Assembly (NCBI GenBank): GCA_938017985.1
Contig: CALIKS010000053.1
Location: forward strand, 1-38,676
Direction: 5' to 3'
DNA: 38,676 bases
Source: an uncultured archaeon
Lineage (GTDB): Archaea; Thermoproteota; Nitrososphaeria_A; Caldarchaeales; Calditenuaceae
Below, in pieces: positions 7,680 to 30,531 of this stretch. The first letter of the stretch is position 1, and every line of letters begins with the position of its first letter. Both the position numbers and the translations under genes were made by a program. The notes beneath the pieces were generated by a model, which saw nothing but the letters and a program-made list of their open reading frames with translations, had not been told where the DNA came from and ran no database searches.

Positions 7680-8483
7680 ATGCTTGTAGTTAAGGCAGGT
7701 GGAAGAGTACTTACATCTAACATGGAGAATATTGCTAGAAGCATAGTCAAGTGGTGGCAGTCAAATCATAAGATAGTCTTCGTGCATGGTGGCGGCGACG
7801 TCGTGTCAGATATGTGCAGACGCCTAGGAATAGAGCCAAAATTCGTTGTCTCTCCATCCGGCATTAGGAGCCGCTATACAGACGAGGCAGAACTTGAAGT
7901 CTATGTCCAAGTAATGGCTGGCAAGATCAACAAGGCTATGGTATCTACTCTTCAGAGGCTTGGTGGGAGGGCTGTAGGTCTAAGCGGTGTAGACGGCGGG
8001 TTACTTGTTGCGGAGCGTAAGAAAAAAATAATCATAGTCGATGAGCATGGGCGTAAACGTGTCATAGATGGCGGCTATACAGGGCAGGTGAAGCTTGTTA
8101 ATCAATCGATAATACAAATACTTGCCGATAATGGATACATCGTCGTTGTCTCTCCAATCGCTTTAGGGACTGAGGGAGAGATACTAAACATTGATGGTGA
8201 CCAAGCAGCAGCAGCGATAGCTAAGGCTCTGAACGCAGATACCTTAGTATTGATGAGTGATGTTGATGGTGTATTCTATAATGATAGGCTTGTGGAGAGG
8301 CTTACGCCGCTAGAGGCTGTAGAATTATCTGCAAAAATAGGCGTGGGGATGAATAGAAAGTTAATGCTGGCCGCTGATGCTGTGCAGAATGGTGTTAGAC
8401 AGGCACTTATATGTAGTGGGCTCGGAGATGATCCATTGGGAAGTATTAATACGCTGAAGGGAACGTTGGTAAAGAGTCAGTAA
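7680..8483 (+). CDS. lysZ: LysW-linked glutamate/aminoadipate kinase
   Basis: LysZ/ArgB, amino-acid kinase family: phosphorylates the side-chain carboxylate of the LysW-bound substrate using ATP. Motifs: VVKAGGRVL at the N-terminus, VHGGGDVVSDM (glycine loop), GLSGVDGGLL, NIDGDQAAAAIAKAL, and VLMSDVDGVF. I place the start at ATG 7680 (267 residues) because family members begin with M-x-V-V-K-x-G-G; a GTG at 7671 would add three residues. GGTGAT just upstream is a plausible but closely spaced ribosome site. It is the last gene of the first half of the cluster, followed by a 100-bp gap with a new promoter. Confidence 0.92.
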   Translation: MLVVKAGGRVLTSNMENIARSIVKWWQSNHKIVFVHGGGDVVSDMCRRLGIEPKFVVSPSGIRSRYTDEAELEVYVQVMAGKINKAMVSTLQRLGGRAVGLSGVDGGLLVAERKKKIIIVDEHGRKRVIDGGYTGQVKLVNQSIIQILADNGYIVVVSPIALGTEGEILNIDGDQAAAAIAKALNADTLVLMSDVDGVFYNDRLVERLTPLEAVELSAKIGVGMNRKLMLAADAVQNGVRQALICSGLGDDPLGSINTLKGTLVKSQ

Positions 8484-25669: not shown

Positions 25670-25773
25670 GGCCGCGGCGGGGACTCGAACCCCGACCTCC
25701 GGGGAAAATTCCTTTCCGGCTGACTGCGTAGTCCTCCACAGGCCGGGAGGCTACCAATTACCTCACCGCGGCC
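25670..25773 (-). tRNA. tRNA-His (GTG) with apparent two introns
   Basis: Read on the minus strand, the acceptor arms GCCGCGG (25772-25766) and CCGCGGC (25677-25671) pair fully. A G is encoded at position -1 (25773) and C at position 73 (25670), the hallmark of tRNA-His. The anticodon stem is CCGGC/GCCGG around CTGTGG...A, giving anticodon GTG. The T arm is CGGGG-TTCGAGT-CCCCG. The span is 104 nt, about 31 too long. The excess falls in two places: 14 nt between positions 37 and 38 (the canonical archaeal site) and about 16-17 nt in the variable region, flanked by CCGG repeats. Removing both gives a normal 73-nt tRNA. Exact splice sites are uncertain. No CCA is encoded. Confidence 0.88.
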
Positions 25774-25874: not shown

Positions 25875-26741
25875 TTAGGTTTTAATACTTGTAATCACGA
25901 ATTCACAAGTATCGGAGCCATTCGCGATGCATTTATCTTCGATGCATGACGTCTTATCCAACTCGTATGCTTCTTTGAATATTCCTTCGAGATAACCCCT
26001 GAAGAAGTGGCTCTTACACTCTTTCGAGCCATTCCTAAATGTTACGCACTCAAATAGGTCTCTCACACTTACGCGCCACTCTTTTTCTTCCTCATTAATC
26101 ATTGTAAGTTCAGCGATTCCCCACCCAGTAGTTTGCATCTCTGATAACGCAATCATCGCGAGTTGCCATCCGTGAAGGTCATATACTTCTTTTAGATGTC
26201 TAGCTCTTTTCTCACCTGCATACTTCCCCATCTCGTAAAATAGGACTAATCCAGATGTCCCCAATAGACTTTGCATCCGTTTAATCATCATGTTAAAGCA
26301 ATCAAGAGACACTAGGATATGTCGTCTACCAGCTAAAAGCAATGGGAAACCGAACTGCTCAATCATTAATCCTTCATAGATCGGCGTGTTTATGTTCACA
26401 TCTTCAACAACCTTTAGTGAGAAAAGTGTTTTAAGGATTAAGTCTATCGTCATGCCAGTCCCAGTATAATCGATGAAAAGTGTTATTACTGTTTTGCCCG
26501 GCTGACCAGCAGGCGTTATGAATCCACTTATGATGTTTATGTTCTTACTGGCCATTAGTGAGGAAACAAGTGCCATAACTCCTGGGACATCCTTCGTCAC
26601 TATCGAGACCTCAGCAATCGACCTATCTTCATAAGACATCATTAATGGTAAATTCAACGGAAAGAACCATCTATGAATTCTCATCGTAGTACTCTCATCG
26701 ACATCTTGAGATTCTTTCCGTTCTACCCACAATTTTTCCAT
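25875..26741 (-). CDS. ACT-V4R two-domain sensor protein
   Basis: A 288-residue cytoplasmic protein combining an N-terminal ACT ligand-binding domain (about residues 42-118, with VTKDVPGVMALVSSLMASKN) and a C-terminal V4R domain (about 145-286). V4R domains bind small hydrophobic or vinyl-type molecules. The C-terminal metal cluster is visible: C266, C271 and C279 in CIEDKCIANGSDTCEF, with C232 and C242 earlier. There is no catalytic domain or HTH. It is divergent from a double-HTH regulator across a mirrored promoter, so it probably acts as that regulator's sensor or co-regulator. This is inference; the ligand is unknown. Confidence 0.82.
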   Translation of the reverse strand: MEKLWVERKESQDVDESTTMRIHRWFFPLNLPLMMSYEDRSIAEVSIVTKDVPGVMALVSSLMASKNINIISGFITPAGQPGKTVITLFIDYTGTGMTIDLILKTLFSLKVVEDVNINTPIYEGLMIEQFGFPLLLAGRRHILVSLDCFNMMIKRMQSLLGTSGLVLFYEMGKYAGEKRARHLKEVYDLHGWQLAMIALSEMQTTGWGIAELTMINEEEKEWRVSVRDLFECVTFRNGSKECKSHFFRGYLEGIFKEAYELDKTSCIEDKCIANGSDTCEFVITSIKT

Positions 26742-26857
26742 ATGATTAACAATAAATGAGTAACTTATTAATTTTTCCTAACATGATTTACATTTGGGCT
26801 GAAAATCACAGAAAAATTTATATATAAGTTATCAATTGTTAATAGGTAGAGCAAGTG
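26742..26857. promoter_or_regulatory. Divergent promoters with mirrored 9+8-bp elements
   Basis: ATTAACAAT (26745-26753) and TAACTTAT (26761-26768) at the left are repeated as perfect inverse copies ATAAGTTA (26824-26831) and ATTGTTAAT (26835-26843) at the right. Each gene therefore has the same two-part element over its own transcription start. TTATATATAA (about 26818-26827) is the TATA box of the rightward gene, whose ATG at 26858 would be almost leaderless. The arrangement suits a single factor controlling both genes, perhaps the regulator itself. Confidence 0.65.
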
Positions 26858-28027
26858 ATGATTAACGAGATTAACAAAAAGCTTAACACAATAAACAATG
26901 ACCACGTTGAAACAAATGAATCACTACGTAATGACTCTGAATTTGTTAAAATTCTAGATTCGCTGAAAAAGTACGGCCCAAGAAATCTATCATTGATAGC
27001 GATGATGACGGGAATACCAAAAGAGACTGTAAGATACAAAGTAAAGAAACAACTAAAGTCAATGGGGTTCATAATCAAAACTATACCTCATTACTACAGA
27101 ATGGGGCTAACAAGATTTTTCGGAACGGTCTCTTTTACAAAGAACGGTTCAAGGTTCGCTCAAGAAATTCTTAGTTGGTTAGGATTAAATTCTTATTTAT
27201 CATACTATGGAAAAATAGCGTTTAGCAACAAATACGTAGTGATATTGAGCCCTCCAGCAAGATGGGTTACGGAGTTCTTCGAGATGTTTGAAGAACTAGC
27301 ATTAAAAGACATTATTGCAGATTATGATTTCAAAGAAGTAATAGAAGTAGGCTATCCACATGTGTCTTATCAATTCTTCGACTTTAAGAAAGGTAGATGG
27401 ATGCTTGACGGTAACTTTGAAAGTAATCCAGACATAATTACATTGCAGAGAATTTCACAACAGGAAGCAGCCAACTATGTAGTCGACATGCTAGACCTAG
27501 CCATAATCTCGGAACTTCGCATTGACGCCTTTAAACCCTTGACTGAAGTCGCAGCACAGTATGGCAAGGACCCAAGACTACTAAGATATCACTTCCAAGA
27601 ACACATTGTAAGAAAGGGCCTAATCGCTGGCTATTTACTTACCTGGTATCCTGAAGGAGAAAGAAGTCCCGATATTGCTCGTTGGTGGGTTGGATTCGGA
27701 CCTAGAAGTGAGCGAGAATTAAATAAACTCACGAGAATGGTCTCTTCATCACCTTTCTGCAAACACTATATGATTAGTGACGACGGCTCCTTTATTGCGT
27801 ATATGATAGCTGATAAGCATCTCATGGATGCAATCAATATTTTGTCTAAAAAGCTTGAGAATGAAGGGATATTCGGCGAACCAGTACTTGAACAAGATGG
27901 TGAGGCCTTCACAGTAACGAAAGAATTATTCACAAACGTAGGAGGATGGTTAAAACCACCATCAATTCCAATAATAACACTAACTCATAATTTAGAAAAA
28001 TTAGCAGAAAGATCGTATAATAAATGA
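26858..28027 (+). CDS. Predicted transcription regulator with two HTH domains
   Basis: From ATG 26858 the protein has 389 residues. A winged-HTH-like region sits at about residues 43-74 (RNLSLIAMMTGIPKETVRYKVKKQL), and a second one at about 211-261 (ISELRIDAFKPLTEVAAQYGKDPRLLRYHF). Each is followed by about 120 residues of alpha/beta sequence with no recognised ligand domain. The duplication suggests a tandem of two Lrp-like half-proteins. It is divergent from the ACT-V4R protein and precedes an MFS exporter. Function as a DNA-binding regulator is inferred from the HTH pattern; exact family unknown. Confidence 0.72.
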   Translation: MINEINKKLNTINNDHVETNESLRNDSEFVKILDSLKKYGPRNLSLIAMMTGIPKETVRYKVKKQLKSMGFIIKTIPHYYRMGLTRFFGTVSFTKNGSRFAQEILSWLGLNSYLSYYGKIAFSNKYVVILSPPARWVTEFFEMFEELALKDIIADYDFKEVIEVGYPHVSYQFFDFKKGRWMLDGNFESNPDIITLQRISQQEAANYVVDMLDLAIISELRIDAFKPLTEVAAQYGKDPRLLRYHFQEHIVRKGLIAGYLLTWYPEGERSPDIARWWVGFGPRSERELNKLTRMVSSSPFCKHYMISDDGSFIAYMIADKHLMDAINILSKKLENEGIFGEPVLEQDGEAFTVTKELFTNVGGWLKPPSIPIITLTHNLEKLAERSYNK

Positions 28028-28299: not shown

Positions 28300-29499
28300 A
28301 TGTCTGATGATCAAGAGGGATTTGCTGGGCTTCCTAGTGATTTTTGGATTTTAATGATCTCGCTTATCATAAGCAATGTGTTCATACTTGGGTTTAGTCC
28401 TTTTATTCCTTATTTTTTAAGAGAAGTTGGCGCAGAGGCAAAAGAGATTGGACTTGTATTCACAGTCTCAAGAGTGTTCTACGTGGCACTAGTACCAATC
28501 GGCGGCTTTATGGCGGACATATTCGGTAGAAAGAAACTTCTCATCCTCGGACCGGCGGTAACTGGAGTGTCCTATCTTGTACTTTCGCAGGCCAATAGCT
28601 GGGAAGATGCTATCCTACCACTTGCGTTTTCTATGCTACCCACAGCCTTTACGGCTCCGCCAATTTTTGCATACATTGCTGATGTGGCGTCCAGATATAG
28701 ATACGGCAGGGCATATGGTATATACTCTGCATGCATGAATCTTAGTGCCGTCGTTGGATATATAATCATGGGCATAGTAATCGATAGATTTGGCTATGAA
28801 TTCAGCATATTTCTCGTCGGTTCATTGACATTAGTATCTGGGCTAACGAGAATATTCTTAAAAGAGACTGTAAAGAGAAGGAGTGATTTATCCGTAAGGC
28901 GGCAATTAGTTAAATCCTGCATAGAGCTGAGGCGTCCATACATATTGCTTCTAATTACCACGAGGTCGTTGTATCTTGCTGTTGCTGGAGTAGTCGTCTC
29001 CATTTTTATTCCTCTCTGGGCAAGGGACTTCGCATTGATGACAGAGGTGGATGTTTCATTAATATTTGCAATTGAAGGAACAGTATACACAGTATTGGCA
29101 CCTATCGGTGGGAGGCTAGTTGAAGGTAAGCAATGGTTTTGGTTATCATTAGTAGAATTACTCATTAGGTCAGGTGCGCTCATAGTTCTAGCTAATTCGT
29201 ATAACATTATTGGGGTGTTAGCAGCGCTTCTCATGGATTCTGGATTTGCAATCTTTGTCATACCTTCAATTGAGGCTAGAATTTCTGCTGAGCTGGAAAA
29301 GTTTCATAGGGGTGCTGGATGGGGAGTACAGCAAGCTTTTATGTCTATTATAACAATGGGTGCAATGTACATTGGAGGCCTATTATGGGATGAATTCGGG
29401 CCAGCAAATACTTTATACATTCATATAGTATACATGGTTTTACTGACAGGTATGCTTTATCTAATCGCCAATAATGAAAAGCAGAAAGGCAACGTCTGA
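28300..29499 (+). CDS. MFS transporter, probable efflux type
   Basis: A 399-residue major facilitator with about twelve predicted helices and a central cytoplasmic loop (about residues 188-205, rich in Arg/Lys). The family loop 2-3 motif appears as GGFMADIFGRKKLL (about residues 68-81), and a weaker copy GGRLVEGKQWFWL starts the second half. Twelve-helix members with this motif are often drug exporters, but substrate cannot be read. It lies between two predicted regulators (26858 and 29653), all on the plus strand. Confidence 0.88.
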   Translation: MSDDQEGFAGLPSDFWILMISLIISNVFILGFSPFIPYFLREVGAEAKEIGLVFTVSRVFYVALVPIGGFMADIFGRKKLLILGPAVTGVSYLVLSQANSWEDAILPLAFSMLPTAFTAPPIFAYIADVASRYRYGRAYGIYSACMNLSAVVGYIIMGIVIDRFGYEFSIFLVGSLTLVSGLTRIFLKETVKRRSDLSVRRQLVKSCIELRRPYILLLITTRSLYLAVAGVVVSIFIPLWARDFALMTEVDVSLIFAIEGTVYTVLAPIGGRLVEGKQWFWLSLVELLIRSGALIVLANSYNIIGVLAALLMDSGFAIFVIPSIEARISAELEKFHRGAGWGVQQAFMSIITMGAMYIGGLLWDEFGPANTLYIHIVYMVLLTGMLYLIANNEKQKGNV

Positions 29500-29556: not shown

Positions 29557-29652
29557 TTCTCTATATTCACTAAACAAGGCATATATCCCTAACTAGTAAC
29601 TGTTAATCACGTAGAACATTGGATTACACAATTTTACAAGGTGGGATACAAA

Positions 29653-30531
29653 TTGATTGAAAATGAAAATAAAAGTGATATAGTTGGACAACTAGCACAA
29701 TCAGCAATTTTAAAATCATCTATTATTAAACGTATCCTCAAATCTGCCGGACTCACATACATCAGACCAACCATTGATCCACACGTTCCTGAGTCAATAA
29801 TTTACCCAAATGCAGACGATTTCTTTGGTACTAAGGGCCTAGAAACGGAGAAAATGCTTGAAAGCCTTGCTTCAATAGGCATATTTAATAAACTTTTACT
29901 CGACGTTATAAAAACCTGTCCGTTCTGCGGTTCTTTTTTGATAGAAACTAAAGAGGTCTGTCCAAGATGCGGCTCGACTGGAATAACTAAAATAAACGAC
30001 ATGTTTAGGTGCAACACATGTTCAGAATCATTTATTACCCCAATGATCTCATTAGTATGTAGCACATGTAAGAAATCTTTCGATATTAATCAAGCAAGGG
30101 CGAGACCCTTATTCTCATATTTACTCATAGAAGAGGCAAGAGAATCAGAGGAGCAAATCCCAGAGATAGAACTTACTGGAAGGCTACGGTTTACCACTCC
30201 TTTAATAAAAGATCTGAAGTCAGTTTTTGACAACTTTATTGGAAAAATGGAGAGATTTATAAATTCATATGTTTCATCAGGACAACCAGAATATCCTAGG
30301 CCATATATGGTGAAGGAGGTTGAAAAAGAAAAAACTCTTCTCCTCCCTTCACATTTAGAAAAGACTTATCACGCACTTAAGAATCTTGGAAAAGCTACTG
30401 CGACCGAAGTAGCAGCACAGACTGGAAGGACACGAGCGATGGAAAGTGTTTACCTGAACCAGCTTGTAACTTTAGGATTAGTCTCAAAAGAAAGGATTAG
30501 TAAGAAATGTTACTATTTTACTAAACAATAA
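29653..30531 (+). CDS. Zinc-ribbon and winged-HTH protein, predicted regulator
   Basis: Unrecognised family. Counting from TTG 29653 (292 residues), the first part is alpha-helical (GQLAQSAILKSSIIKRILKSAG). Four CxxC knuckles follow: CPFC, CPRC, CNTC and CSTC, with cysteines at about 89/92, 103/106, 120/123 and 136/139, enough for two zinc ribbons. A C-terminal winged HTH (about residues 233-289: EKTYHALKNLGKATATEVAAQTGRT) resembles archaeal regulators. TTG 29653 has AAGGTGGG 8 bases upstream; GTG 29641 lies inside that site. The position after the MFS gene suggests a role in its control, which is inference. Confidence 0.75.
   Translation: MIENENKSDIVGQLAQSAILKSSIIKRILKSAGLTYIRPTIDPHVPESIIYPNADDFFGTKGLETEKMLESLASIGIFNKLLLDVIKTCPFCGSFLIETKEVCPRCGSTGITKINDMFRCNTCSESFITPMISLVCSTCKKSFDINQARARPLFSYLLIEEARESEEQIPEIELTGRLRFTTPLIKDLKSVFDNFIGKMERFINSYVSSGQPEYPRPYMVKEVEKEKTLLLPSHLEKTYHALKNLGKATATEVAAQTGRTRAMESVYLNQLVTLGLVSKERISKKCYYFTKQ

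Follow-up and report, generated by a model that had tools for sequence, protein, structure and literature searches.

The divergent gene pair at positions 25875-28027 of the window, by which we mean the whole 38,676-nucleotide stretch analyzed, appears from its sequence to be part of a real, conserved and specific regulatory unit of hot-spring archaea. The gene for a protein with an ACT and a V4R domain (ACT-V4R; 25875-26741, minus strand, 288 aa) lies head to head with that for a double Lrp-like regulator (26858-28027, plus strand, 389 aa), and mirrored ATTGTTAAT elements lie inside the 116-bp spacer that separates them (26742-26857). The surprising part is an apparent exchange of sensors: the regulator faces ACT-V4R in two genera and an unrelated CBS-domain protein in a third, and the promoter box is kept.

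The first-pass annotation had described the divergent pair and its mirrored spacer elements. Checking the sequence confirmed this observation as a whole, with both open reading frames, the spacer and all four words found at the coordinates claimed. The left side of the spacer carries the 9-mer ATTAACAAT (26745-26753) and the 8-mer TAACTTAT (26761-26768); the right side carries the 8-mer ATAAGTTA (26824-26831) and the 9-mer ATTGTTAAT (box B; 26835-26843, plus strand), which is the mirror image of 26745-26753 and lies 10 bp 3′ of the regulator TATA box. Just 3′ of the ACT-V4R gene, there is also an intron-containing tRNA gene (25670-25772, minus strand; Rfam tRNA, 43.8 bits) that was missed by ARAGORN.

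Among the mirrored words, the 9-mer is probably the element that matters. A search by sequence and pattern predicted a TATA box for each gene, TTAATAAG for ACT-V4R (26764-26771, minus strand) and TTTATATA for the regulator (26817-26824, plus strand), and the two promoters accordingly read TTAATAAG-N10-ATTGTTAAT (minus strand, 26771-26745) and TTTATATA-N10-ATTGTTAAT (26817-26843). The pairing of 9-bp and 8-bp elements proposed earlier therefore held for the 9-mer, which has this fixed TATA spacing and recurs in a second genus, but not for the 8-mer, which we rejected because it mostly overlaps the TATA box, lies at unequal distances from the 9-mer (7 vs 3 bp) and is not kept in relatives. The consensus of the box seems better written as TGTTAATCA than as the original 9-mer, and in this form box A (26743-26751, minus strand) is located 12 bp 3′ of the TATA box, at the predicted transcription start of ACT-V4R. 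Archaeal TATA boxes are usually centered near –26/–27; on this basis, the boxes would span roughly –12 to –4 and the ACT-V4R transcript would be leaderless. The words are thus near each gene start, as had been noted, but the boxes sit between the TATA box and the predicted transcription start rather than over the gene start itself. A weak extra box, TGATTTACA (one mismatch; 26784-26792, plus strand), was found upstream of the ACT-V4R TATA box, and two one-mismatch boxes, TGATTAACG and AGATTAACA (26859-26876, plus strand), which are weak because they are coding sequence, lie over the regulator start codon, where relatives carry TGACTAACA. Scans for sigma-70 promoters and terminators were set aside because the host is archaeal.

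The mirrored words might be ordinary core-promoter sequence or a chance product of an AT-rich spacer (76% AT), given the overlap of the 8-mers with the TATA boxes and the appearance of an exact 9-bp inverted repeat in 9% of dinucleotide shuffles of the spacer, which makes the repeat weak evidence alone. This explanation was already disfavored, and we consider it very improbable. When extended, the imperfect inverted repeat (arms of 33 nt, 76%) outscored 99.9% of shuffles, and identity at 9/9 bases at these two fixed spacer positions appeared in 1 of 20,000 shuffles. Across the 1.63-Mb genome from which the window comes, TTWAWAWR-N10-ATTGTTAAT matched two perfect sites, both in the spacer, and no site with one mismatch. 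Although this pattern was fitted to its two sites, the absence of anything resembling them elsewhere in the genome is informative and argues against a general promoter element, as does the retention of the box across genera at fixed spacing.

We surveyed 44 genomes of the order and detected a relative of the regulator in 29 and a relative of ACT-V4R in 33. The window's genome contains the divergent pair, and so do five of the six second-genus genomes (G013, G014, G016, G017 and G018), in which the proteins are about 33-36% identical; the contig of the sixth, G015, stops immediately upstream of ACT-V4R. The cluster order ACT-V4R, regulator, MFS transporter, TackOD1 is the same in both genera. 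At the ACT-V4R promoter, TATA-N12-TGTTAATCA is exact in the window, G013, G014 and G018 and has one mismatch in G017, and it occurs hardly anywhere else in these genomes. All six second-genus genomes have another box, TGATTGACAA or a variant of it, directly against the upstream side of the ACT-V4R TATA box; in two of them (G015 and G016) an upstream variant stands alone, without the downstream box. Where both boxes are present, their centers are about 32 bp apart, that is, three helical turns, a spacing that has been reported for Lrp proteins (PMC2995911). Archaeal Lrp sites upstream of the BRE are associated with activation and those downstream of the TATA box with repression (PMC2995911), and the second-genus boxes flanking the TATA box recall both positions. 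Because the second-genus genomes are close relatives, the whole comparison amounts to about three lineages at the genus level. Conservation of the pair and its elements in relatives, which the first-pass annotation had proposed as a check, was thus observed in the second genus and, with a CBS-domain protein replacing ACT-V4R, in a third.

Three genomes, G009, G010 and G012, represent this third genus. Their regulator orthologue, at 38-40% identity and in a clade with support of 1.0, faces a protein whose CBS domain scores at or near the Pfam cut-off. A box is present at the CBS gene, at about the corresponding place after the TATA box, and reads TGTTAATCA in G010, TGTTAATCT in G012 and TGTCAATCA in G009. 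With the start of the CBS gene also boxed, the factor shared by every box is the regulator. G009 retains the order regulator–MFS–TackOD1, and its locus adjoins genes that, by our own reading, we take to be of type IV pilus type (an ATPase and pilin-like ORFs). Across five third-genus loci, the regulator/CBS pair and the MFS and TackOD1 genes are found among type IV pilus-like genes, including a secretion ATPase and pilin-like ORFs. These neighbors hint at a possible control of surface structures. TackOD1 (arCOG06883) is placed in thaumarchaeal type IV pilus loci in two studies (PMC4858521, PMC5847659), with which the G009 locus agrees.

The switch had been described as the pair alone; however, the unit reaches beyond position 28027, because the same box is found again at 29601, in front of the TackOD1 gene at 29641. 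This gene (29641-30531, plus strand, 296 aa) encodes a TackOD1 zinc-ribbon protein with a C-terminal TrmB-type winged HTH (wHTH) (Pfam TackOD1, 4.8e-19; TrmB, 5.7e-6), and its box C, TGTTAATCACGTAG (29601-29614, plus strand), is located upstream of the gene, about 12 bp 3′ of the TATA-like sequence ATATATCC. The window has three exact TGATTRACA copies, among them box C, which lies outside the region that yielded the motif and has a similar TATA spacing. The extended box TGTYAATCAYRTRG, which we composed knowing both sites, is exact at two places only in the window's own genome, namely the ACT-V4R promoter and 29601. G018 (exact) and G015 (one mismatch) also have the box at TackOD1, and neither was used to define the motif there. 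Between the regulator and TackOD1 genes, the MFS transporter gene (28300-29499, plus strand; Pfam MFS_1, 1.3e-37) is a conserved neighbor in three genera; no box was found at its start in the window, and we gave less weight to boxes at the MFS start in the second genus because these lie inside a conserved coding start. The sequences thus point to a local regulon consisting of ACT-V4R, the regulator, TackOD1 and perhaps the MFS transporter. Overall, 12 of 13 exact TGATTRACA copies (six loci) lie within –60 to +20 of the starts of these genes, with a nominal P of 4e-20 that is inflated by relatedness and by post-hoc motif choice, the box having been defined from these loci. Two exact copies elsewhere were discarded as lying within coding sequence: a core copy at window position 8096, inside a gene that we read as acetylglutamate-kinase-like, and an extended box on contig C26 of G010.

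The TackOD1 protein has a TrmB-type wHTH, its own gene is boxed and this gene is conserved in the cluster, so that the TackOD1-TrmB protein, with the double-HTH protein as a co-regulator, could be what binds the boxes. We regard this as improbable. In G010 and G012, the TackOD1 gene is on another contig without boxes and the box remains at the regulator/CBS pair, indicating that the box follows the regulator. Moreover, tandems of TackOD1 and ACT-V4R in other families start without a box, and in families with both genes but without a close regulator we found no boxes except one single-mismatch copy at –81. The nearest homologues of the window's ACT-V4R, in four genomes from two other families, lie directly 3′ of TackOD1 and have unboxed starts. 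This adjacency without the regulator suggests a probable functional link between ACT-V4R and TackOD1 that does not depend on the presence of the regulator. In another family, genes next to the tandems at two loci were assigned by eye to a membrane glycosyltransferase, to signal peptidases and to another V4R protein, 168 aa long.

The assignment of an ACT domain (about residues 42-118) and a V4R domain (about 132-286) stands, with a qualification for the latter. The ACT domain scores above the Pfam cut-off (ACT_AHAS_ss, PF22629; 28.5 vs 27 bits), whereas the V4R domain of the window protein scores below it (25.5 vs 31 bits); V4R is above the cut-off, at 37-42 bits, in homologues from other families and in a paralogue. 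The predicted structure (mean pLDDT 57.8) consists of a babbab unit and a V4R fold, and its top Foldseek matches were PoxR/MopR sensory domains, archaeal TRAPPC3 and ACT domains. A PDB search with the sequence or a five-row profile yielded no V4R structure; such structures were matched in the fold search only. Residues C232, E268, C271 and C279 are conserved in all 15 aligned family members, as a Cys (in FEC, VEC or DC) followed by E-x2-C-x7-C, and have the makeup of a putative metal-type site. No DNA-binding domain was recognized in the protein, and we found no literature description of a V4R and an ACT domain together in archaea. The window protein groups with homologues from two other families and not with its own paralogue on contig C15. 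Another ACT-V4R subfamily, in family f2, follows, by eye, an AbrB/PhoU-like gene (L087:5629-7506 and L088:2786-4612).

The regulator contains an HTH at about residues 27-68 and another at about 211-253, each followed by a RAM/ACT-like unit. An alignment of its two halves with hhalign showed them to be homologous (probability 95%, E 2.9e-8, 151 columns), and a profile of residues 201-331 matches P. furiosus LrpA (1i1g, E 0.001). The AlphaFold model has a mean pLDDT of 38.5 and was used for secondary structure alone, which reads HTH-babbab-HTH-babba. The regulator thus has the HTH followed by babbab and the likeness to a solved Lrp protein that are expected of this class, but it is a 389-aa chain with two homologous halves rather than a single HTH-RAM unit of about 150 aa. 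Pfam gave no match above cut-off for this protein: the AsnC-type HTH (PF13404) scored 17.7 bits against a cut-off of 27, and the RAM ligand-binding domain (PF01037) was not matched. The two HTH units recognized in the first-pass annotation are therefore supported by the homology of the halves, although their Pfam HTH matches are weak and below cut-off. Taken together, the regulator appears to be a tandem duplication of an HTH plus ACT/RAM-like unit resembling LrpA. Relatives of it are present in 38 of 300 genomes of the phylum, mostly without such a partner. Members of this double-HTH family occur widely across the phylum in differing gene neighborhoods, and several adjoin small wHTH-like or short helical ORFs.

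We propose, with about even confidence, that the locus is a ligand-responsive regulon in which the double Lrp-like regulator represses the box promoters and ACT-V4R (or the CBS protein) is its ligand-sensing partner. The regulator would bind TGTTAATCA-type boxes between the TATA box and the transcription start of its own gene, ACT-V4R and TackOD1. Once bound, it would keep RNA polymerase off the TBP/TFB complex, causing repression and autorepression as in Pyrococcus LrpA. ACT-V4R would bind a small molecule, possibly amino acid-like in the ACT domain and a hydrophobic or redox/metal signal in the V4R domain, and would modulate the regulator (or the TackOD1 protein). The feedback loop would close when the box promoters open and the sensor is made; in the sister genus, the CBS-domain protein would be the sensor. 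We infer the box-binding role of the regulator, the repression and the partnership with ACT-V4R, as well as any identity of the ligand and of the MFS substrate.

Archaeal Lrp-type regulators usually sense via their own RAM domain. The regulator might likewise sense an effector with its own RAM/ACT-like domains, in which case ACT-V4R (or the CBS protein) would be a target gene product acting elsewhere, for example on the TackOD1 protein or a metabolic enzyme. The presence of such units in the regulator is consistent with this, as is the position of ACT-V4R directly after TackOD1 genes, with no close regulator, at four loci of two other families. However, the same divergent boxed position is filled by either of two ligand-binding proteins of unrelated kinds, which is more easily explained by feedback on the regulator, and we judge sensing by the regulator itself possible but rather doubtful. 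Within the proposed sensor-partner regulon, a similarly tentative suggestion is that the signal enters through a distinct, interchangeable sensor protein whose divergent gene shares the operator, so that one sensed signal gives way entirely to another with the regulator and operator retained. The persistence of an orthologous regulator and its operator beside a swapped ligand-binding protein would make the acquisition of new signals by regulators testable in a compact unit. The locus also provides genomic context for two poorly understood architectures, ACT-V4R and TackOD1, and the box is a concrete, nearly genome-unique element.

Compared with the Lrp/AsnC regulators P. furiosus LrpA and Ss-LrpB (PMC2995911), the present regulator shares an HTH and a RAM-like fold and a gene divergent from a putative target. 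LrpA represses from a site bordering the TATA box downstream (PMC2995911), and the candidate site here similarly lies between the TATA box and the start, with the Lrp-like spacing of three helical turns in relatives. Unlike these proteins, two HTH-RAM-like units are fused in one chain, the AsnC HTH is below cut-off, the AsnC ligand domain is unmatched and the divergent partner is itself a predicted small-molecule-binding protein. MsvR, a V4R regulator of methanogens (PMC3729527), resembles our system in its V4R domain with conserved Cys residues, its divergent intergenic region and its boxes over the transcription start and TATA box. In MsvR, however, V4R and HTH share one chain, whereas in our system V4R is joined to ACT and a different protein carries the HTHs; ACT-V4R scored 30.6 bits against the NCBIfam MsvR equivalog cut-off of 220, with the match confined to V4R. 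The phenol sensors PoxR, MopR and DmpR share the V4R fold (Foldseek), and the C...E-C-x7-C pattern of ACT-V4R resembles the zinc site of DmpR, formed by C151, E172, C177 and C185 (PMC7264223), but ACT-V4R is archaeal, lacks an AAA+ or DNA-binding domain and has an ACT domain in front. With the TackOD1 family (arCOG06883), the regulon shares a TackOD1 gene and, in the third genus, a locus adjoining type IV pilus-like genes; the fusion to a TrmB-type wHTH and the link to ACT-V4R are not reported in the sections of PMC5847659 and PMC4858521 on which this comparison is based. The switch had been called undescribed, and this applies to the combination but not to the operator layout, which follows the archaeal precedents of LrpA and MsvR. 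The parts, namely an Lrp-like regulator and V4R/ACT and CBS sensors, are of known kinds, and it is only their combination that is new.
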